Shown here piece by piece: positions 5,128-62,497 of a stretch of 64,000 nucleotides of DNA. The stretch covers positions 2,706,726-2,770,725 of the forward strand of contig NZ_LN890655.1 in assembly GCF_900066015.1 (NCBI RefSeq), written 5' to 3'. Numbering within the stretch: the first letter of the stretch is position 1; every line of letters starts with the position of its first letter. The stretch is from Candidatus Promineifilum breve (GTDB lineage: Bacteria; Chloroflexota; Anaerolineae; Promineifilales; Promineifilaceae). A program made the translations under genes and the position numbers. A model generated the notes under the pieces. That model saw nothing but the letters and a program-made list of their open reading frames with translations. It made no database searches and was not told where the DNA came from.

Positions 5128-5187
5128 CGCGGATGAGAAATGTTCTTTATCCGCGTCAATCTGTGTCATCCGCGTCATCCGCGTTCT
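5128..5187. repeat. Dispersed ATCCGCGTCA-type repeat
   Basis: Three tandem ATCCGCGTCA-like units with a short inverted partner (CGCGGAT at the left). This is a variant of the AAATCTGCGG/CCACAGATT repeat seen at 12109, 23582, 56072 and 62314. It occupies the space just before the comM promoter. Confidence 0.5.
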
Positions 5188-5212
5188 ATTCTTCCTTCCT
5201 CGCGACGAGTGC

Positions 5213-11091: not shown

Positions 11092-12123
11092 ATGAAGTTC
11101 GACGTCAGTTTCCTGCAACCCAAACTGGAGCAAATGCCGGCCTATGCCGCCGCGGCCGAGGCGCTGGGCTTCGATGGCTTCTGGGCGGCCGAGACCAACA
11201 GCGACCCGTTCCTCAATCTGGCCCTGGCCGCCGAGCACAGCCGGCGGATGACGCTGGGCACGGCCATCGCCGTGGCCTTTCCGCGCAGCCCGGCCATCCT
11301 GGCCTACACCGCCTGGGACTTGCAGCGCTATGCGCGCGGCCGGTTCGTGCTGGGGCTGGGGCCACAGGTGAAGGCCCACAACGTGTTGCGCTTCGGCGTC
11401 AAGTGGGAGAAGCCGGTCAAGAAGATGCGCGAGACCATCGAGGCCATCCGCGCTTTCTGGCACTGCTGGCAGACGGGCGCGCCGCTGGACTACGCCGGCG
11501 AGTTCTTCAAGTTGGCCCTGATGACCCCCTTCTTCAACCCCGGCCCCATCGACTACCCGCCGCCGCCGATCTACATCGCCGCCGTCAATGAGCAGATGTT
11601 GCGACTGGCCGGGTCGCATTGCGAGGGCGTCCACATCCACGCCCTGCACACTGCCCGCTATCTGCGCGAGGTGGCCCTGCCGGAGATCGGGGAAGGGCTG
11701 GCCCGCGCCGGCCGGACGCGGGCCGAGTTCGCCGTCAATACGTCGGTCTTTGTCATCCCCACCGACGACCCGGCCGAGGCGCGGGCGGCCGAAGCCCACG
11801 TGCGGCAGCAGCTTTCCTTCTACATGAGCACCCCGGCCTACAAGTCGGTGCTGGCGCTGCACGGCTGGGAAGGCGTGGCCGACGAGTTGGGCCAGTTGGC
11901 CCGCGGCGGTCAGTGGGACGAGATGGGCCGGCTCATCAGCGATGAGATACTCGACACCTTCGCCGTCACCGGCCGCTGGGCCGAGTTGCCGGGCCTCATC
12001 CGCGCCCGCTATGGCGACCTGCTCGACCGCGTGGGCTACTATCTGCCCTTTGAGCCGGGCGCGAACGACGCCGGCTGGGCTGCGTCCATCGCCGGGTTCA
12101 GGGAAGAGGAAACCACAGATTGA
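11092..12123 (+). CDS. F420-dependent LLM-class oxidoreductase (TIGR03617-like)
   Basis: A 343-residue luciferase-like TIM-barrel enzyme. The start MKFDVSFLQPKLEQ, EALGFDGFWAAETNSDPFL, GTAIAVAFPRSPAILAY, FVLGLGPQVKAHN and PPPIYIAAVNEQMLRLAG fit the F420-dependent branch related to TIGR03617. Substrate unknown; F420 use is inferred from the subfamily. GGGAG precedes the ATG. The last residues (EEETTD) and the stop codon lie in a CCACAGATT repeat (12109-12213), so the natural C-terminus was probably altered by repeat insertion. Confidence 0.85.
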   Translation: MKFDVSFLQPKLEQMPAYAAAAEALGFDGFWAAETNSDPFLNLALAAEHSRRMTLGTAIAVAFPRSPAILAYTAWDLQRYARGRFVLGLGPQVKAHNVLRFGVKWEKPVKKMRETIEAIRAFWHCWQTGAPLDYAGEFFKLALMTPFFNPGPIDYPPPPIYIAAVNEQMLRLAGSHCEGVHIHALHTARYLREVALPEIGEGLARAGRTRAEFAVNTSVFVIPTDDPAEARAAEAHVRQQLSFYMSTPAYKSVLALHGWEGVADELGQLARGGQWDEMGRLISDEILDTFAVTGRWAELPGLIRARYGDLLDRVGYYLPFEPGANDAGWAASIAGFREEETTD

Positions 12124-12213
12124 GGCAGTGGGTAGTGGTCAGTGGTCAGTGGTCAGCCGCTATACTGACCACTGACCACTGACCACTGACCACTATCTTA
12201 AATCTGTGGTTTC
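12109..12213. repeat. Nested palindromic repeat (CCACAGATT outer, GGTCAGT inner)
   Basis: Outer arms GAAACCACAGATT (12109-12121) and AATCTGTGGTTTC (12201-12213) enclose a second inverted repeat made of tandem AGTGGTC units on the left and GACCACT units on the right. The same two-layer plan occurs at 56072-56195. The left arm contains the stop codon of the LLM gene. Confidence 0.85.
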
Positions 12214-12231: not shown

Positions 12232-13389
12232 ATGTTCTCGTATTTCACCGCCGAACACGACGCCTTTCGCCGCACGGTGCGCCGGTTTGTGGAGACGGAG
12301 ATTAACCCCCACGTCGAAGAGTGGGAGGCGGCGCGCCTCTGGCCGGCCCACGAGTTGCTCAAGAAGATGGGCGATCTGGGCCTGCTGGGCCTGGGCTACC
12401 CGGAGGAATACGGCGGCGGCGGTGTGGATTACTGGTACAACACCGTCTTGCTGGAGGAGTTGGGCCGGGCCGATTGCGCCGCCGTGCCCATGGGCATTGC
12501 CGTCCACACCGACATGGCGACGCCCGCCCTGGCCGAGTTCGGTAGCGACGAACTGAAGCGCCGCTTTCTGGCCCCGGCCATCGCCGGCGACATGGTGGCG
12601 GCCATCGGCGTCAGCGAACCCGACGCCGGCTCCGACGTGGCCGCCATCCGCACCCGCGCCACGGCCGACGGCGACGATTACGTCATCAACGGGGCCAAGA
12701 TGTGGATCACCAACGGCGCGCAGGCCGATTTCGTCACCCTGCTGGTTCGCACCGGCGGCGAGCGCGGCTTTCGCGGCATGTCGCTCATCGTCGTGCCCAC
12801 CGCTACGCCCGGCTTCCACGTCAGCCGCACGCTGGAGAAGATGGGCAACCACGCCAGCGATACGGCCATCCTGACCTTCGAGGACGTGCGCGTGCCCCAG
12901 GCCAACCGCATCGGCGCGGAAGGCATGGGCTTTATCCTGCAAATGAAGCAGTTCCAGAAGGAGCGGCTGGCCGGGTCGCTGATGAGCACGGTGGGGATGG
13001 AGAAGATGATCCGGCTGACCATCGACTACACCCGCGGCCGGCAGGCGTTCGGGCGGCCGCTCATCGATAACCAGTGGATCCACTTCCGGCTGGCCGAACT
13101 GCTGACCGAGGTCGAGGCGTTGCGCCAGTTGAACTACCACTGCGTCCGGCTGCTCATCGCCGGCGAGGACCTGACCAAAGAGGTGTCGATGGCTAAGCTG
13201 AAGGCCGGGCGGTTGGCTCGCGAGGTGGCCGACACTTGCGTGCAATTCCACGGCGGCATGGGCTACGTCGAGGAGTACCCGATGGCCCGCTACTTCCGCG
13301 ACGCCCGGCTGCTGTCCATCGGCGGCGGCGCGGACGAGATCATGTTGGGCATTATTGCCAAGTATGAGAATATATTACCCAAAGGATGA
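12232..13389 (+). CDS. Acyl-CoA dehydrogenase
   Basis: A 385-residue FAD enzyme that should oxidise an acyl-CoA to a 2-enoyl-CoA. N-terminal helices, then the beta domain with AAIGVSEPDAGSDVAAIRT and KMWITNGAQADFVTLL, then the C-terminal helical domain with YTRGRQAFGRPLIDNQ and FHGGMGYVEEYPMARYFRDA. The segment at the usual short-chain catalytic Glu reads LSIGGGADEIM, so that Glu is absent, as in isovaleryl/long-chain types; the alternative position before AFG is Gln. The catalytic base is therefore unclear. RBS CAGGAGAA. Context (acyl-CoA carboxylase genes nearby) suggests branched-chain acyl-CoA breakdown. Confidence 0.9.
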   Translation: MFSYFTAEHDAFRRTVRRFVETEINPHVEEWEAARLWPAHELLKKMGDLGLLGLGYPEEYGGGGVDYWYNTVLLEELGRADCAAVPMGIAVHTDMATPALAEFGSDELKRRFLAPAIAGDMVAAIGVSEPDAGSDVAAIRTRATADGDDYVINGAKMWITNGAQADFVTLLVRTGGERGFRGMSLIVVPTATPGFHVSRTLEKMGNHASDTAILTFEDVRVPQANRIGAEGMGFILQMKQFQKERLAGSLMSTVGMEKMIRLTIDYTRGRQAFGRPLIDNQWIHFRLAELLTEVEALRQLNYHCVRLLIAGEDLTKEVSMAKLKAGRLAREVADTCVQFHGGMGYVEEYPMARYFRDARLLSIGGGADEIMLGIIAKYENILPKG

Positions 13390-13401: not shown

Positions 13402-13500
13402 GCAGGGGAGCAGGGGGGCGGGGGAGCAGGGGAGAATTATTGAGTGACGAATGGCGACAGACCGCAGACGACTGACTACTGACCTATTGACCTGCTGAAT
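13402..13500. repeat. GCAGGGGAGCAGGGG repeat and remnants
   Basis: A single arm of the GGGGAGCAGG repeat (13402-13434), followed by a degenerate patch with GACTGACTACTGACCTATTGA-like units. The latter resembles the inner GGTCAGT family. It fills the gap between the dehydrogenase and the kinase genes. Confidence 0.5.
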
Positions 13501-21546: not shown

Positions 21547-21562
21547 AGGTTTCTTCTCCAGA

Positions 21563-21639
21563 GCAGGGGAGCGGGGGTGCAGGGGGGCAGGGGAGAGGAG
21601 TCTTTTCACCCCTGCTCCCCCGCTCCCCTGCTCCCCTGC
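21563..21639. repeat. GCAGGGGAGC palindromic repeat
   Basis: Left arm of tandem GCAGGGG(A/G)G units and right arm of CTCCCCTGC units around GAGGAGTCTTTTCA. The same family occurs at 53386-53481 (both arms), 13402 and 56919 (one arm). It lies between the carboxyltransferase and biotin carboxylase genes of one operon and ends just before the RBS region of the latter. Confidence 0.8.
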
Positions 21640-21653
21640 GCTTTAACGCTCAA

Positions 21654-23512: not shown

Positions 23513-24667
23513 ATGGACGATGTATATCTGGCCCTCGACTTCGGCGGCACAAAGCTGAGCGCGGCGATCTTCAGGAAAGAGGAATCCGCAGATTTCACAG
23601 ATGACGCAGATTATTCCTTCTTCAAATCTGCGAAATCTGCGAAATCTGCGGATTCTACCTCTTATTCTCTCCTCGACTTGCGCCGGGTGGTCACCCCGGC
23701 CGACGCCGACGCGGCCTATGAGCTGGCAGCGATGATCGCCCTGGCCCGTGAACTGCTCGGTGGCCGTCAACCGGCGGCCGTCGGGGTCAGCTTCGGCGGC
23801 CCGGTGGATTTCGCGCGGGGCGTCGTGCGGCTATCCCATCACGTGCGCGGCTGGGAGAACGTGCCGCTGCGCGATGTGCTGGCCGGGGAGTTCGGTTGCC
23901 CGGCGGCGGTCGACAACGACGCCAACGTTGCCGCGCTGGGCGAGCACCGTTTCGGCGCGGGGCGCGGCGTGGACGATCTGCTGTACGTGACGGTCAGCAC
24001 CGGCGTGGGCGGCGGCTGGGTGCTGGGCGGGCGGCCGTGGCGTGGTCACGGCGGCATGGCGGGCGAGATCGGCCACACCGTGGCCAACCCGGCCGGGCCG
24101 TTGTGCCTGTGTGGCAAGCGGGGCTGTGTGGAGCGGCTGGCGTCGGGGCCGTATATGGCGGCGGATTATGGTGGGCGGGTTGGTAACCCGCCGGGGGGCA
24201 GGGGAGAAGACCCTCTCCCTAACCCTCTCCCGGGGGGAGAGGGGACTCCGATCCCCCTCCCTCCGGGAGGGGTTAGGGGAGGGTTCGGGGGAGAAGACCC
24301 TCTCCCTAACCCTCTACCGGGGGGAGAGGGAACCCGGACCTCGCTCCCAGAGGTAGAGGGGACGGCAATGACGGGGCGCGACGTGGCCGAGGCGGCGGCG
24401 GCCGGCGACGAGGTGGCGCGGGCGATCCTGTTGCGCGGGGCGTGGGCGCTGGGGGTGGGGCTGGGCAACGCCGCCAATCTGATCAACCCGCAACGCTTCA
24501 TCCTCGGCGGCGGCGTCACCAAAGCGGGCGAGGCGTGGTGGGCCGAGGTCCGGCGGGCGGCGGCGGCCACGGCCCTGCCCGAAGTGAGCTTCGACATCGT
24601 GCCCGCCGCGCTGGGCGACGACGCGCCGCTGTGGGGGGCAATCGCACTGCTGACCACCGACGACTGA
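23513..24667 (+). CDS. ROK family sugar kinase (glucokinase-like) with repeat insertions
   Basis: A 384-residue ROK protein, expected to phosphorylate glucose or a related sugar with ATP. Seen: phosphate loop LALDFGGTKLSAAI (residues 6-19), catalytic Asp in AVDNDANVAALGEH, STGVGGGWVLGG, HTVANPAGP then the zinc motif CLCGKRGCVE. Two inserts break the usual fold length (about 300-320): residues 24-48 from a palindromic CCGCAGATT repeat, and about 220-285 from GGGCGGGTTGG and CCCTCTCCC repeats (Pro/Gly-rich). The stop codon lies in a third palindrome. The frame is intact, so the protein may still fold. Context: pullulanase gene convergent downstream. Confidence 0.85.
   Translation: MDDVYLALDFGGTKLSAAIFRKEESADFTDDADYSFFKSAKSAKSADSTSYSLLDLRRVVTPADADAAYELAAMIALARELLGGRQPAAVGVSFGGPVDFARGVVRLSHHVRGWENVPLRDVLAGEFGCPAAVDNDANVAALGEHRFGAGRGVDDLLYVTVSTGVGGGWVLGGRPWRGHGGMAGEIGHTVANPAGPLCLCGKRGCVERLASGPYMAADYGGRVGNPPGGRGEDPLPNPLPGGEGTPIPLPPGGVRGGFGGEDPLPNPLPGGEGTRTSLPEVEGTAMTGRDVAEAAAAGDEVARAILLRGAWALGVGLGNAANLINPQRFILGGGVTKAGEAWWAEVRRAAAATALPEVSFDIVPAALGDDAPLWGAIALLTTDD
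23582..23655. repeat. Palindromic GAATCCGCAGATT repeat inside the ROK gene
   Basis: Left arm GAATCCGCAGATTT plus CACAGATGACGCAGATT units; right arm of three AAATCTGCG units ending GGATTC. Outer arms pair perfectly over 14 bp. It is read in frame as Ser/Ala/Asp/Lys-rich residues 24-48. Related copies lie at 12109, 56072 and 62314. Confidence 0.85.
24171..24366. repeat. Composite repeat insertion inside the ROK gene
   Basis: Begins with GGGCGGGTTGGTAACCCGCC (a palindrome also found at 29052 and 47856), then carries two copies of GAAGACCCTCTCCCTAACCC with complementary GGGGTTAGGGGAGGG. It is read in frame as Pro/Gly/Glu-rich peptide containing DPLPNPLPGGEGT twice. Confidence 0.85.
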
Positions 24668-24696
24668 CCACCGACCGTGGTCAGTCGTCGGTGGTC
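24652..24696. terminator. Palindrome between convergent genes, likely bidirectional terminator
   Basis: A perfect 20-bp stem, GACCACCGACGACTGACCAC (24652-24671) and its complement (24677-24696), with a 5-nt loop. It supplies the ROK stop codon (TGA 24665-24667) and ends 6 nt before the pullulanase stop. It belongs to the GGTCAGT repeat family. There is no T-run, so classical termination is not assured. Confidence 0.6.
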
Positions 24697-29051: not shown

Positions 29052-29154
29052 GGGGCGGGTTGGTAATCCGCCTCGGCGGTTGTAGGGCGGGTTGGTAACC
29101 CGCCCCCGGCGAATAAACGATATTGAAGAGGGGCGGGTTGCCAACCCGCCCTAC
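29052..29154. repeat. GGGCGGGTTGGTAACCCGCC repeat, three units
   Basis: Three copies of a self-complementary GGCGGGTTGG(T/C)AA(C/T)CCGCC unit, the last one inverted relative to the first, ending CCGCCCTAC. It fills the space between the divergent pullulanase and DUF123 genes. In frame it would extend the pullulanase N-terminus, but the signal peptide and RBS argue against that. Confidence 0.85.
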
Positions 29155-29158
29155 AAAT

Positions 29159-33661: not shown

Positions 33662-35122
33662 ATGAAACGTAATCTCGTCTTGCTCATGCTCTTGCTGGGT
33701 ACGTTGTTGGCCGCTTGTGGGGGCAATGACGCCGACACCCGCGAACCGTCGATCGCGCTGGAAGAGTGCCGGTTGACGGGCGGCGTCATGGCCCGTTGCG
33801 GCGTGCTGACCGTGGCCGAGAACCCCGACGCGCCCGACGGCCGCACCATCGCCCTCGACATCGCCGTGTTGCCGGCCACCGGCAGCAGCAACGTGGTGCA
33901 GGCCGATCCGCTCTTTCTGCTGGCCGGCGGCCCCGGGCAATCGGCGACGGAAGTCTATCCGTTGGCCGTCTATCTGTTCGAGGAAGTCAACCGCACCCGC
34001 GACATTGTCCTCATCGACCAGCGCGGCACAGGCGAGGAAAGCGGCTTCACCTGCGACAACCTGACCGACGAGTCATTGCCCGACGATCTGCCCGACGCGG
34101 CGGCCGTGGCCCTGCTCGACGAATGCCGCGCCGCGCTGGCGGAGCGGGCCGACCTGACCCAATACACCACCGACCGCTTCATCGCCGACCTGGAAGCGGC
34201 GCGGCTGGCCCTCGACTACGACACCATCAACCTCTATGGCGCGTCCTACGGCAGCCGGGCGGCGCTGGCCTATATGCGCCGCCACCCGGACGTGATTCGC
34301 TCGGCCGTGCTCGACGCCGTGGCCGGGCCGGAACTGGTGCTCTACCGCGACATGCCCCGCGACGGGCAGCGGGCGCTCGATCTGCTGTTCGAGCGCTGCG
34401 CCGCCGACGCGGCCTGCCACGCCGCCTTCCCCGACGTCCGCGCCGAATATGACGACTTGCTGGCCCGGCTGGCAACGCCCCAGGCCATCACCGTGGCCCA
34501 CCCGCTGACCAACGAACCGCTCGAATTCCAGATGACCCGCGACCGGCTGGGGCAGTACGTCTTCAACGTCCTCTATAGCGCCGAGTTCCAGTCGTTGCTG
34601 CCGCTGCTCATTCACCACGCCCACGAGACGGGTGATTTCGCGCCGCTGATCATCCAGGCCCTGTCCGTCGGCAGCGGCGCGGGCCTCTATACCGGCCTGC
34701 TCTATGCCGTGGCCTGCTCCGAGGACGCGCCACTGATCGACCCGGCGGCCGAGACGCAGACCGACACGAGCTTCGGCTCCTTCGCCGCGAACTTCCAGGC
34801 CATCTGCGCCGGCTGGCCGCGGGCCGAGGTGGCCGGCGACCTGCGCCAACCGCTACAGAGCGACATTCCCACGCTGCTGCTCTCCGGCGGCTCGGACCCG
34901 GTGACGCCGCCGACCTATGCCGAAGCGGCAGCCGCGACCCTGCCCAACAGCCGCCATCTGGTCGTGCCCGGCTACGGCCACGGCGTGCTGGCTGTGGGCT
35001 GTATGCCGCGCGTGGTGGCCCAGTTCATCCGCGACGGCCACGCCGATGACCTCGATACGGCCTGCCTGGACGAATTGCAGCCGCCGCCGTTCTTCGTCAC
35101 GTTCGCCGGGCCGGAGCCGTAG
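33662..35122 (+). CDS. Alpha/beta-hydrolase lipoprotein (S33 peptidase-like)
   Basis: A 486-residue lipoprotein: MKRNLVLLMLLLGTLLAACGG with lipobox LAAC. It matches the secreted tripeptidyl-aminopeptidase/prolyl-aminopeptidase-like branch of family S33. Catalytic triad by motif: Ser in YGASYGSRAALAY, Asp in LLSGGSDPVTPP, His in VPGYGHGVLA. The oxyanion region is LLAGGPGQSA, followed by IVLIDQRGTG. It probably cleaves N-terminal residues from peptides at the cell surface. A strong promoter lies upstream. Confidence 0.9.
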   Translation: MKRNLVLLMLLLGTLLAACGGNDADTREPSIALEECRLTGGVMARCGVLTVAENPDAPDGRTIALDIAVLPATGSSNVVQADPLFLLAGGPGQSATEVYPLAVYLFEEVNRTRDIVLIDQRGTGEESGFTCDNLTDESLPDDLPDAAAVALLDECRAALAERADLTQYTTDRFIADLEAARLALDYDTINLYGASYGSRAALAYMRRHPDVIRSAVLDAVAGPELVLYRDMPRDGQRALDLLFERCAADAACHAAFPDVRAEYDDLLARLATPQAITVAHPLTNEPLEFQMTRDRLGQYVFNVLYSAEFQSLLPLLIHHAHETGDFAPLIIQALSVGSGAGLYTGLLYAVACSEDAPLIDPAAETQTDTSFGSFAANFQAICAGWPRAEVAGDLRQPLQSDIPTLLLSGGSDPVTPPTYAEAAAATLPNSRHLVVPGYGHGVLAVGCMPRVVAQFIRDGHADDLDTACLDELQPPPFFVTFAGPEP

Positions 35123-35123
35123 G

Positions 35124-35165
35124 GTAGTGGGCAGTGGACAGTGGGTAGTGGACAGTAGGTCAGTA
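35124..35165. repeat. AGTGGGCAGTGGACAGT repeat, one arm
   Basis: Tandem (A/G)GTGG(G/A)CAGTGG units starting 2 nt after the hydrolase stop. It matches the inner arms of the nested palindrome at 56105-56155; the complementary arm is missing here. Confidence 0.6.
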
Positions 35166-37841: not shown

Positions 37842-37945
37842 GAATCACACAGAGCACACAGAGCGAAGACACAGAGTTACACGGAGACTCAACGAATCTT
37901 TCCTCCGTGGTCTCTGTGTTCCTCTGCGCCCTCTGTGTTCCTTCT
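37842..37945. repeat. Palindromic ACACAGAG repeat
   Basis: Left arm of GCACACAGAGCGAAGACACAGAG-like units, right arm of CTCTGTGTTCCTCTGCG-like units, around CAACGAATCTTTCC. Units of about 9 bp are partly degenerate. It lies between the YjbQ and aminotransferase genes. Single-arm relatives are at 502, 47441 and 48950. Confidence 0.8.
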
Positions 37946-44590: not shown

Positions 44591-44609
44591 TGTCGCGCCA
44601 GGTCAGGAA

Positions 44610-44702
44610 GAATTGGCTACGGATTACCACGGATGTTACGGATAGAAACGGATAAAAAATCCATTTCCATCCGTTTTGTCCGTTTAAATCCGTAGCCATT
44701 TC
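44610..44702. repeat. GGCTACGGATTACC palindromic repeat, copy 1
   Basis: Outer arms AATTGGCTACGGATT / AATCCGTAGCCATT and inner tandem ACGGAT units pairing around AAAAA. Lies between aapJ and aapQ. Confidence 0.85.
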
Positions 44703-44717
44703 TTTATCTTAATTGAA

Positions 44718-44811
44718 GAATTGGCTACGGATTACCACGGATGTTACGGATAGAAACGGATAAAAAATCCGTTTCTATCCGTTTCGTCCGTTTAAATCCG
44801 TAGCCAATTCT
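44718..44811. repeat. GGCTACGGATTACC palindromic repeat, copy 2
   Basis: A near-identical second copy in tandem with copy 1. Inner stem GGATAGAAACGGAT / ATCCGTTTCTATCC is perfect. It ends 5 nt before the aapJ stop (minus strand), so the two hairpins follow aapJ in the transcript and precede the permease genes. Confidence 0.9.
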
Positions 44812-44816
44812 TATTC

Positions 44817-45980
44817 TTATCGGAATGGCGGCGCGTACTGGATACCGCCTTCGGTATACAGCGCGTTCAGGCCGCGCGGCAGATCGAACGGCGTATCGGG
44901 GCCGAGGTTGCGGTTGTAGATCTCGCCGTAGTTGCCGACCTGCTTGACGATCTGGTAGCAGAAGTCGTTGTTCAGGCCCATCGCCACGCCCAGGTCGCCC
45001 GTCTCGCCCATCAGGTTCTGGATGACCGGGTCCTCGCCGCCCAGGAAGGTATCGACGTTGGTCGAATCGATGCCCATCTCTTCGGCGGCGATGGTGCAGA
45101 AGATCGACCACTTGACGATGTCGTACCAGTTGTTATCGCCGTGGCGCACGGCGGGGGCCAGCGGCTCCTTGGACATGGTCTCGTCGAGGATGATGTGGGC
45201 CGCCGGGTCGGCCATCAGGATTTGCTGCGACACCAGGCCCGATTTGTCGGTGGTGAAGCCGTCGCATTGCCCTTCGTCGTAGGCCAGACGGGTCGCGTCG
45301 GCTTCGTCGAAGACGACCGGGGTAAAGTCGATGCCGCGGGCGCGGAAGACGTCGGCCAGATTCTTCTCGGTCGTCGTGCCCGACTGGACGCAGATCGTGC
45401 CGCCGTCCAGCCCCTCCAGGTCCTCAATGCCGCTATCGGCGCGCACCATCATGCCCTGGCCGTCGTAGAAGGTGACCGGCGCGAAGTCGAGGCCCAGCGA
45501 CGTGTCGCGGCTGATCGTCCAGGTGGTGTTGCGGCTGAGCACGTCCACCTCGCCCGATTGCAGGACGGGGAAGCGCTCGTTGGCCGTCGTCGGCCGCACT
45601 TCGATGGCGTTGGGGTCGCCCAGCACCGCCACGGCGAACACCTTGCAGAAGTCGATGTCGAAGCCCTCGAACTCATTGGTGTCGGGGTTGATATAGCCGA
45701 AACCGGGAACGGACTGGTTGCCGGCGCAGCGCAACGTGCCGCGCTCGCGCACTGCGTCGAGGGTGTTGCCGGTGACGACGACCGGCGCTTCGGTTGGCGC
45801 GCCTTCGGCTGCGGCCTCGGTGGGGGCGACGGTCGATTCGGCGACAGCCGGCGCTTCGGTGGCCGCGGCTTCGGCCGCGGCCTCGGTCGGCGTGGTTTCC
45901 TGCGCTGCACCGCCACAGCCCGCCAGGGCCAGGGCCAGCACCGCCAACAATGCCAACAAATAACTCAATCGTGCTTTCAT
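44817..45980 (-). CDS. aapJ: Amino acid ABC transporter substrate-binding lipoprotein
   Basis: A 387-residue lipoprotein: MKARLSYLLALLAVLALALAG then Cys (lipobox ALAGC), an Ala/Thr/Glu/Pro linker to about 70, then the type II amino-acid binding fold. LDAVRERGTLRCAGNQSVPGF, FEGFDIDFCKVFAVAVLGD, SLGLDFAPVTFYDGQGMMVR and GDNNWYDIVKWSIFCTI match AapJ/general L-amino-acid binding proteins. RBS AGGAG. First gene of the operon, separated from the permeases by two repeats that may raise its relative expression. Confidence 0.95.
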   Translation of the reverse strand: MKARLSYLLALLAVLALALAGCGGAAQETTPTEAAAEAAATEAPAVAESTVAPTEAAAEGAPTEAPVVVTGNTLDAVRERGTLRCAGNQSVPGFGYINPDTNEFEGFDIDFCKVFAVAVLGDPNAIEVRPTTANERFPVLQSGEVDVLSRNTTWTISRDTSLGLDFAPVTFYDGQGMMVRADSGIEDLEGLDGGTICVQSGTTTEKNLADVFRARGIDFTPVVFDEADATRLAYDEGQCDGFTTDKSGLVSQQILMADPAAHIILDETMSKEPLAPAVRHGDNNWYDIVKWSIFCTIAAEEMGIDSTNVDTFLGGEDPVIQNLMGETGDLGVAMGLNNDFCYQIVKQVGNYGEIYNRNLGPDTPFDLPRGLNALYTEGGIQYAPPFR

Positions 45981-47859: not shown

Positions 47860-47960
47860 GATGGGTTGGCAACCCGTCTCTTGATAATGGCTATGTAGGG
47901 CGGGTTGGCAACCCGCCTCTTCAATTAGAGGCTTAGGGGCGGGTTGCCAACCCGCCCTAC
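47856..47960. repeat. GGGCGGGTTGGCAACCCGCC repeat, three units
   Basis: Three self-complementary units GGGTTGGCAACCC (the first degenerate) with the last in inverted order, bounded by GTAGG and CCTAC. It lies within the rpmF-fabD gap and contains the rpmF stop codon. Confidence 0.85.
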
Positions 47961-47966
47961 ACTGTT

Positions 47967-48873: not shown

Positions 48874-48943
48874 GGTGGCGAGTAGCGAGTAGCGGGTGGC
48901 GGGTTTTTCTTAACTCGCCACTCGCCACCCGCCACCCGCCACT
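48874..48943. repeat. GTGGCGAGTAGCGAGT palindromic repeat
   Basis: Left arm of GGCGAGTAGCGAGTAGCGGGT units, right arm of CTCGCCACTCGCCACCC units, around TTTTTCTTAA. It is followed by a one-arm TTTGCGTCTTTGCGCCTTTGCG repeat up to 48969. It fills the fabD-fabG gap. Confidence 0.75.
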
Positions 48944-53385: not shown

Positions 53386-53481
53386 GCGCAGGGGGGCAGG
53401 GGAGCAGGGAGGCAGGGGTGAAAGAGACGCTCGATAACGGCTCTTTCTCCCCCGCTCCCCCGCTCCCCTGCTCCCCTGCGC
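53386..53481. repeat. GCAGGGGAGC palindromic repeat, both arms
   Basis: Left arm of GCAGGGG(G/A) units, right arm of CCCCCGCTCCCCTGC units, around GAAAGAGACGCTCGATAACGG. It lies between pheS and pheT and ends just before the pheT RBS region. Confidence 0.85.
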
Positions 53482-56071: not shown

Positions 56072-56195
56072 GAATCCACAGATTTCACAGATTTCACAGA
56101 TTGGGAACAGTGGGCAGTGGACAGTGGGCAGTCCACTGTCCACTGCCCACTGTTCACTTTCTTAAATCTGTGACATCTGTGCAATCTGTGGTTTC
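56072..56195. repeat. Nested palindromic repeat (CCACAGATT outer, CAGTGG inner)
   Basis: Outer arms ATCCACAGATTTCACAGATT and AATCTGTGG; inner perfect 23-bp stem (56105-56127 with 56133-56155) of CAGTGG(G/A)CAGTGG units around GCAGT. It lies after pheT and before the acyltransferase gene. Confidence 0.9.
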
Positions 56196-56207: not shown

Positions 56208-56966
56208 ATGCAGTCACTTCTTCGTTCGCTGATTCGCGGGTTTGTGCGTCTGCTGTTCCGCCTCGCTCTCAAGCTGGAGATCGAGGGGCTGGAGCATGCG
56301 CCGCCGGGCGGGCCGCTGATCGTCATTGGCAACCACTTCAGTATCTTCGAGGCCCCGCTGCTGATGCTCCACTTGCCCTATGGCGACCGGGTGACCTGGC
56401 TGGCGGCCACGGAGTTGCAGGATTCACGCATCCTGAAGGCGCTCATCGGCCTGTTCAACATCATCCCCATCTGGCGCGGCCAGCCCGACCGGGCGGCGCT
56501 GCATCGCGCTTCGGAGTGGCTGGCGGGCGGCGGCGTGATCGGCATCATGCCCGAGGGGGGCGTGGACGAGACGCTGCGCCACCTGACGACGGCCGGGGTG
56601 CAGACGGGATTGCACGGCGGCCCCAACTCGCGCCTCGATGCGCAACTGATCACGCCGCGGCCGGGGGCGGCCTATCTGGCCGTGCGTAGCGGCGCACCGC
56701 TGCTGCCCGCGGCTTTTCTGGGCACGGAGAACGTCATGGCTAACGTGCGCCGCCTGCGACGCACGCCGGTGCGGATGATCATCGGCCCCGTCTTCGGCCC
56801 GCTGACCATCGACCCGGCCCTGCCCAAAACCGAACGGCGCGCGCGGCTGGACGAGATGGGCCACGAGATGATGCGCCATATGGCGGCGTTGTTGCCGTTG
56901 GAGAATCGGGGGCCTTATAGGGAGCAGGGGGGCAGGGGGGCAGGGGAGCAGGGGAGCTTTCATTAG
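56208..56966 (+). CDS. PlsC-type phospholipid acyltransferase
   Basis: A 252-residue acyltransferase of the 1-acyl-glycerol-3-phosphate type, membrane associated. IVIGNHFSIFEAPLL is motif I with H-x4-E instead of the usual H-x4-D; then WLAATEL, NIIPIWRGQPDRAAL, and MPEGGVDETLR as motif III. Long N-terminal amphipathic region. The last about 17 residues (YREQGGRGAGEQGSFH) come from a GCAGGGGAGC repeat read through to the stop, so the native C-terminus was likely shorter. Confidence 0.85.
   Translation: MQSLLRSLIRGFVRLLFRLALKLEIEGLEHAPPGGPLIVIGNHFSIFEAPLLMLHLPYGDRVTWLAATELQDSRILKALIGLFNIIPIWRGQPDRAALHRASEWLAGGGVIGIMPEGGVDETLRHLTTAGVQTGLHGGPNSRLDAQLITPRPGAAYLAVRSGAPLLPAAFLGTENVMANVRRLRRTPVRMIIGPVFGPLTIDPALPKTERRARLDEMGHEMMRHMAALLPLENRGPYREQGGRGAGEQGSFH
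56919..56958. repeat. GCAGGGGAGC repeat arm inside the acyltransferase gene
   Basis: One arm of tandem GGGAGCAGGGGGGCAGGGG units forms the last codons of the acyltransferase gene. Confidence 0.75.
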
Positions 56967-62313: not shown

Positions 62314-62377
62314 GAAACCACAGATTACACCGATTACACCGATTTCAATCTGTGTAATCTGTGTAATCTGTGGTTTC
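62314..62377. repeat. GAAACCACAGATT palindromic repeat
   Basis: Left arm GAAACCACAGATT plus two ACACCGATT units, right arm of three AATCTGTGT(A/G) units ending GGTTTC. Here no inner second family is present. Confidence 0.85.
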
Positions 62378-62381
62378 TTTT

Positions 62382-62479
62382 GTAGGGCGGGATGGCATCC
62401 CGCCTTCCGGGTTGTAAGGCAGGATAGTATCCCGCCTGTCAGGGGGGAGAGCAGAGGGCGGGATACCATCCCGCCCTAC
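62382..62479. repeat. GTAGGGCGGGATGGCATCCCGCC repeat, three units
   Basis: Three GGCGGGAT(G)-centred self-complementary units bounded by GTAGGG and CCCTAC. It is the GGATGGCATCC variant of the repeat at 29052 and 47856. With the two preceding elements it makes three different repeats in a row between MalG and the GH57 gene. Confidence 0.85.
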
Positions 62480-62497
62480 AATAGGGAGAAAAACGGT

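Follow-up and report, generated by a model that had tools for sequence, protein, structure and literature searches.

Two repeats in a 64,000-nt stretch of the Candidatus Promineifilum breve genome (hereafter the window) raise the question of how one short palindrome came to lie inside another of a different family, and what moves such repeats. At both sites, locus 1 (12109-12213) and locus 2 (56072-56195), a palindrome of CACAGATT-type 9-nt units has a CAGTGGN palindrome at its centre (Table 1). The outer pair of locus 1 consists of CCACAGATT arms enclosing a CAGTGGT-unit palindrome, and the inner CAGTGGK arms showed 100% complementarity over 24 nt. The final codons of the upstream gene, and the beginning of its TGA stop, come from the outer left arm. 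Locus 2 is neighboured by a phenylalanyl-tRNA synthetase beta-like gene and an acyltransferase gene, and its inner CAGTGGG/CAGTGGA arms are separated by a loop of 2 to 5 nt. Folded as single-stranded DNA, locus 1 reached -48 kcal/mol (z of -12.7) and locus 2 -57.2 kcal/mol (z of -14.7), and 0 of 200 shuffles were as good in either case. The arm complementarity and the DNA folds confirm the two-family nested palindromes that an earlier note, made from the sequence, had described at 12109 and 56072.

Table 1. Repeats and neighbouring genes in the window, with positions counted from its first nucleotide
Feature	Coordinates	Strand
Gene upstream of locus 1, luciferase-like monooxygenase, stop codon inside the repeat	11092..12123	+
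Locus 1 outer left arm, 9-nt family F1, gAAACCACAGATT	12109..12121	+
Locus 1 inner left arm, (CAGTGGK)4.4	12126..12156	+
Locus 1 inner-palindrome loop	12157..12163	no strand
Locus 1 inner right arm, (ACTGACC)4.4	12164..12195	-
Locus 1 outer right arm, AAATCTGTGGTTTC	12200..12213	-
Gene downstream of locus 1, acyl-CoA dehydrogenase	12232..13389	+
Locus 2 outer left arm, three CACAGATT units	56072..56102	+
Locus 2 inner left arm, CAGTGGG CAGTGGA CAGTGG	56105..56127	+
Locus 2 inner right arm	56133..56155	-
Locus 2 outer right arm, three AATCTGTG-type units	56164..56195	-
F3b (CGCGGAT) palindrome, most of one arm lost	5128..5190	
F4 8-nt palindrome, GAGCAGGG	21561..21642	
F2/F1 9-nt palindrome, CGCAGATT	23582..23655	
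F12 palindrome, GACCACCG	24652..24696	
F9 inverted GTAG-type REP pair, REPIN-like, no tandem-unit palindrome	29080..29156	
F11 palindrome, CACAGAG	37842..37945	
F3 (ACGGAT) palindrome, whole tandem duplicate, period 108, 94%	44608..44812 (duplication within 44607-44819)	
F9 REPIN-like pair, no tandem-unit palindrome	47894..47961	
F6 7-nt palindrome, GTGGCGR	48874..48943	
F4 8-nt palindrome	53386..53481	
F1 palindrome	62314..62377	
F9 REPIN-like pair, no tandem-unit palindrome	62380..62481	
One-armed tandem array of the same unit families, without inverted partner	13402-13434	
One-armed tandem array, as above	35122-35164	
One-armed tandem array, as above	56920-56957	

The families were named F1 to F15 in this analysis. 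Units of 7 nt characterize F5 (CAGTGGN), F6 (GTGGCGR), F7 (AATTANG) and F8 (CTAGGTN), the F4 unit (GAGCAGGG) has 8 nt, and the 9-nt units of F1 (CACAGATTN) and F2 (CGCAGATTN) differ by one base; F3 (ACGGAT) is irregular, and F9 is a pair of GTAG-type REPs. Counted by eye, the window holds 11 families, where the earlier note had given at least ten; some of the repeats in the window are one-armed, decayed or REP pairs (Table 1). Within the 864 kb around the window (C1 2306726-3170725) we found 86 inverted repeats with a score of at least 20, whereas one Markov-3 sequence of equal length had 0. At a score of at least 18 there were 388 in 1.804 Mb (the 864 kb of C1 and 940 kb of C2, of a whole genome of 5.03 Mb) and 0 in a Markov-4 sequence; 72 of the 388 fell outside any named family. 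An exact 17-mer of the inner family F5 occurs 118 times in the genome, and its mirror control 0 times. F3 palindromes also stand repeatedly in groups of two or three across the genome. The inverted repeats are about 2.2 times denser on contig C2 (1.0 Mb) than on C1, with 274 in 940 kb as opposed to 114 in 864 kb, and C2 is possibly a second replicon from which repeats are purged less strongly. A separate repeat, at least 24 nt long and including ATAGAGGGTACTGAAAC, with about 143 occurrences in C1 2306726-3170725, probably represents one or more CRISPR arrays.

The orientation of the left-arm units was constant in 266 of 269 palindromes from ten unit families (F1 to F8, F3b and F11). Two of the three exceptions were F3 palindromes, and the third was a longer, unlike repeat picked up by the F5 motif. 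Across 25 genomes, 18 of which had been chosen for having a forward match, F1 gave 222 forward matches versus 1 reversed match when nested registers were counted apart, and the sole reversed match overlaps an adjoining forward palindrome. How a tandem array becomes an inverted partner had been left unclear in the earlier note, which suggested hairpin-primed copying. If either strand could fold back, palindromes of both polarities would be expected; the fixed polarity therefore argues against a strand-blind fold-back, and hairpin-templated copying in general may still be the route. One-armed arrays are numerous in the genome, and they could be ancestors of the palindromes rather than their decay products.

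The proposal that the inner element had inserted at the centre of the outer one was borne out across the repeats scanned. All 16 intact two-family composites, defined as motif clusters within 70 nt, had the order X>Y>Y<X<, with none side by side and none with the guest within an arm; a further 93 two-family clusters lacked an arm, were mixed or contained chance motif matches, and these incomplete ones were counted neither way. The nests comprised F1 around F2 (8), F1 around F5 (7) and F3 around F1 (1), and those of F1 and F5 are the cleaner evidence because the F1 and F2 units are so similar.

Usable orthologous gaps were obtained from six of seven congeners. At locus 1, P. breve has F1 arms with F5 inside, whereas in G005 a 9-nt F2-like arm encloses CACGCCAAG/GACGCAAAG units, and G007, of which the right side only was available, has the same right arm as G005 with different content. 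The outer arm was absent from G001, G002, G003 and G006; G001 has an F4 palindrome at this site, G006 a one-sided F4-like stretch, and G002, G003 and G006 no such palindrome. P. breve, G005 and G007 formed one clade with a support of 1.000 (FastTree, four concatenated genes, one of them available for G007). Because the outer arm is common to this three-species clade and the inner contents differ, as between P. breve and G005, the comparison indicates that the outer element is older than the inner, in agreement with the earlier note, provided that the F1 and F2 arms are one diverged insertion. Alternatively, the F1 arms of P. breve and the F2 arms of G005 and G007 may have arisen by separate insertions into one site. 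In P. breve the upstream gene has its stop codon within the repeat (C-terminus ...EEETTD*), as if the element had entered the gene end, whereas in G001, G002 and G003 the gene terminates in its own codons. At locus 2, the right F1 arm is common to P. breve and G002 with different contents, and the other congeners showed an F2-type outer element (G001), an F4 palindrome (G005), a degenerate trace (G003) or an empty site (G006). At coordinate 614209 of the 864-kb stretch, an F2 outer element is common to P. breve and G002, and only G002 has an inner one, that is, a longer centre with another inverted sequence.

Turnover among the congeners was fast. The 545 gaps of P. breve yielded 93 orthologous pairs with partial contigs of G002, G003 and G006, and 42 orthologous gaps had an inverted repeat with a score of at least 16 in P. 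breve. Read by eye, the same family was kept in 8 of these 42 and missing in 34; the repeats are thus not fixed at the same positions across species, consistent with the mobility presumed in the earlier note. F1 tandem 17-mers, counted on both strands, numbered 240 in P. breve, 202 in G007, 67 in G001, 4 in G002, 3 in G005, 1 in G006 and 0 in G003, and F5 palindrome matches numbered 52 in P. breve, 4 in G007, 3 in G005 and 0 in the other 22 genomes. Since the congeners and P. breve have only about 68-90% identity in the flanking genes, the boundaries between filled and empty sites are blurred and no target-site duplication, such as a MITE would leave, was readable, and no transposition event was seen directly in the congener comparisons. 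Several G007 contigs (L182, L207 and other CALLZA loci) share identical short translated peptides, which are probably residual sequencing adapter in that MAG.

The exact F1 (CACAGATT) palindrome pattern was found at 120 loci or more, with record titles naming bacteria of many phyla. Among the matches listed were Proteobacteria, Bacteroidetes, Cyanobacteria, Planctomycetes, Acidobacteria, Chloroflexi, Nitrospira, Ignavibacteriae and Verrucomicrobiota by record title, which for MAGs can be wrong through contamination; the cultured bearers among them include Asticcacaulis, Bacteroides, Flavobacterium and Laspinema. An F1-like pattern occurred in 1 of 400 genomes sampled from the own phylum, namely that of P. 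breve itself, and in 0 stretches of viral contigs. The occurrence of one 9-nt palindrome in distant bacteria, together with its rarity in the sample of its own phylum, suggests either horizontal transmission or a process common to the hosts. F5 palindromes were found in 0 of 18 foreign genomes having F1, which indicates that the families are not transferred together.

With genes placed by a simple codon-usage caller on 1.0 Mb, 108 tandem-family palindromes fell into 77 codirectional, 16 convergent and 8 divergent gaps, 6 lay inside called genes and 1 was not placed. All gaps of at least 60 nt in the 864 kb comprised 287 codirectional, 46 convergent and 92 divergent ones, so that divergent gaps held 8 of 101 intergenic palindromes but made up 92 of 425 gaps. 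The median distance of the tandem-family palindromes to a gene 3' end was 8 nt, and F5, F6, F7 and F8 all form convergent inverted pairs of 7-nt units, intergenic and near gene ends. Both the short distance and the scarcity in divergent gaps would fit functional RNA hairpins, either terminators or stabilizers of mRNA 3' ends, that are selected and re-made convergently. However, the arm mismatches on the transcribed strand of the 77 codirectional palindromes were 40 G.U, 46 A.C and 101 others; there was no excess of G.U over A.C (p of 0.59) and therefore no sign of selection on RNA pairing. The window had 0 matches to Rfam families at the gathering threshold, the gap content is not conserved among congeners, and convergence on a hairpin does not explain an identical 9-nt word in distant bacteria. 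We consider selected RNA hairpins improbable as the origin of these repeats.

Since the hairpins adjoin gene ends, they could be transcribed, and a reverse transcriptase, one of the agents named in the earlier note, might copy the hairpin RNA. A search of the P. breve genome for RVT_1 (PF00078) gave 0 matches, which contradicts this idea unless a reverse transcriptase outside PF00078 exists, and we regard it as very improbable. The other named agent was a TnpA_REP-like transposase. In their hairpin form, their extragenic position and their arrangement as inverted pairs, the palindromes are indeed REPIN-like, as if they were REPINs moved in trans by TnpA_REP/RAYT (Y1) transposases, and three Y1_Tnp matches were found in P. 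breve. The gene at C1:556427 (L073 1080-1960) has GTAGGTGGAACTTCC palindromes of the GTAG type on both sides and is a likely partner of the GTAG REPs of this genome, the type to which F9 belongs. That at C2:284376 (L071 1351-1854) lies among many CCGTGGGATGAATCCCACG, CCGGCTGAAGCCGG and GCGGCGGGTTTGAACCCGCC palindromes and possibly forms with its surroundings a REPtron with three REP types, and no flanking palindromes were seen at the third (L072). However, none of the palindromes directly beside the genes at C1:556427 and C2:284376 consists of F1-F8 units; the closest ones of F5/F1 and of F3 are found only past a neighbouring gene. The GTAG foot, present in F9, is absent from the listed flanks of F1-F8.

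We also searched 25 distinct genomes for the F1 tandem 17-mer, which 24 of them bear (G003 has none), and for Y1_Tnp. Y1_Tnp was absent at E<=0.001 from 8 of these 24 genomes bearing the CACAGATT tandem, and seven of the eight have 7 to 107 copies: Asticcacaulis biprosthecium (107), Phocaeicola (63), B. fragilis Q1F2 (49), Flavobacterium UBA7665 (36), Geothrix (36), Laspinema (15) and an Acidobacteria MAG (7), the eighth being G006 (1). Of these eight genomes, seven are drafts or MAGs, from which a gene could be missing, and Bacteroides fragilis Q1F2 is complete by its title. In an all-against-all comparison of the ORFs at 120 listed F1 loci, none of the top 14 clusters was transposase-like by eye, and no gene family of the sort that could be the autonomous partner of a MITE was seen to recur among them. 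RAYT/TnpA_REP does not seem to be required for the CACAGATT family, and there is little chance that such transposases are the general mover.

The arms, centres and feet of the palindromes were compared for traces of copying. In a permutation test without selection on arm matching, mirrored arms were found in F3 (0/5000), F8 (10/5000) and F5 (37/5000) and were not seen in F1, F2, F4, F6 and F7; F4 arms matched the arms of other palindromes better than their own partners (4948/5000). A unit-by-unit mirror test was significant for F5 alone of six families. An apparent mirroring in 9 of 10 families was set aside, as that first test had used repeats selected for matching arms. The self-complementary centre AAGARCGYTCTT (at least 10/12) was present in 19 of 20 F8 loops, 11 of 22 F7 loops and 2 of 22 F1 loops, compared to 0 of 632 flank windows; a common loop motif had looked weak in 132 loops at first and proved real, with more data, for F7 and F8 only. 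In the 12 nt just outside the arm, AAGA was present for 62 of 76 F1, 21 of 34 F2, 46 of 112 F3, 14 of 62 F5 and 9 of 36 F6 arms and for about 10% of those of F4, F7 and F8, against a background of 4.4%, and it also occurred at the tip in F1 (47/76). It may be nothing more than the cap at the outer end of the 9-nt families.

Host replication alone could leave such traces if the fork stalled at a hairpin and the nascent 3' end switched from tip to tip, copied and returned; nests would then grow from the centre and arms would be homogenized without a dedicated enzyme. The strictly central nesting is consistent with this, as are the AAGARCGYTCTT centre common to two families with different arms (F7 and F8), AAGA both outside F1 arms and at their tips, the mirrored arms of F3, F5 and F8, and the finding of no reverse transcriptase and no consistent transposase. 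However, the first entry into palindrome-free gaps and the bursts of whole families are not explained by it alone, and the arms of F4 are unmirrored. We regard replication alone as a possible account, though one that is probably not correct.

The account that we prefer, to which we give about an even chance, is that the repeats are small non-autonomous mobile hairpins that insert at the 3' ends of genes and into the tips of hairpins already present. It builds on the polarity, the central nesting, the insertion order at three loci, the fast turnover among congeners and the lack of any sign of RNA-level constraint. The excess over chance, the upstream gene's end within the repeat of locus 1, the AAGARCGYTCTT centres and the mirrored arms of F3, F5 and F8 speak for it as well, whereas the unmirrored families, the confinement of that centre to F7 and F8, the numerous one-armed arrays and the failure to find a mover gene beside F1 palindromes speak against it. 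Each element would be a polar unit consisting of an outer cap, two to about four 7-9-nt units and a centre, followed by the reverse complement, and would spread as a whole palindrome, not as a single array that later gains a partner. The palindrome itself would thus be the copied unit, and hairpin (single-stranded) DNA would be the target. Elements would settle mostly just behind stop codons, a second element entering the tip, or centre, of a resident hairpin would produce a nest, and slippage would then alter the number and order of units. In some families the arms would stay mutual copies, as expected if one arm were copied on the other in a DNA hairpin. More tentatively, and slightly less probably than replication alone, the mobile hairpins might form a transposase-less class whose movement would consist in a switch of template from one hairpin tip to another as the DNA is replicated. 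Such a class, which is rather unlikely, would be marked by AAGA both at the foot and at the tip, newcomers at the tip only, one polarity and the crossing of phyla.

Small dispersed repeats of cyanobacteria (Elhai's repeats) and IS1397 in REP loops belong to the background of such elements. A close likeness is that to the GGGAATC heptamer repeats of Xanthomonas and Nostoc, which the available part of Rehm et al. 2015 (PMC4692102) describes as 7-nt tandem units, mostly intergenic and close behind an ORF, with 8% and 7% between divergent ORFs and 70 and 75 inverted convergent pairs. They are generally unlinked to IS elements, the long repeats lie at different genes in the two species, and only a few of those of Nostoc are paired (PMC4692102). 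Short tandem units, inverted pairs near gene 3' ends and rarity in divergent gaps are common to both systems; however, the GGGAATC repeats are one unit family, and that part of the paper describes no nesting, insertion order, arm mirroring or cross-phylum identity. The TAACTGA heptamer repeats of Beggiatoaceae, also present in Cyanobacteria and Bacteroidetes, resemble F1 in that a short unit is common to distant lineages, and horizontal transfer is suspected with no evident mechanism, but they are direct repeats near start codons with one inverted repeat only, according to the available text of MacGregor 2015 (PMC4679880).

REPINs, in the available text of Bertels and Rainey 2011 (PMC3116915), are extragenic, non-autonomous inverted pairs copied as a pair, with singlets as remnants. 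They resemble the present palindromes as inverted pairs forming hairpins in extragenic space, but come with a RAYT and lack 7-9-nt tandem units, and nesting is not described in that text. The accessible part of PMC3733652 distinguishes GTAG- and CGTC-tagged REPs, the latter without an adjoining dedicated transposase gene. F9 resembles the GTAG-tagged REPs, and F1 resembles the CGTC REPs in lacking such a gene alongside, whereas neither tag is a common foot in the listed flanks of F1-F8, whose arms are tandem arrays. The insertion of IS elements into REPs, reported in the available part of Tobes and Pareja 2006 (PMC1525189), likewise makes a palindrome the target of another mobile element, but the guest in the present nests is a short gene-less palindrome. 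Six 16-17-mers of the units matched no paper, and nothing was found on nested tandem-unit palindromes in a literature search with most subscription journals beyond its coverage.

The repeats are of a known kind, that of inverted heptamer arrays and REPINs, and the new features are the many coexisting families, the strict polarity, the strictly central nesting with a readable order and the apparent independence of RAYT and reverse transcriptase. They bear on the old question of how tiny repeats that carry no genes can spread, and reverse transcriptases and RAYTs, the usual suspects, are seemingly not needed. From the nests and the species tree, the order of arrival of several coexisting unit families can be read. 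The sharp predictions that follow from strict polarity and strictly central nesting are testable by resequencing close strains.
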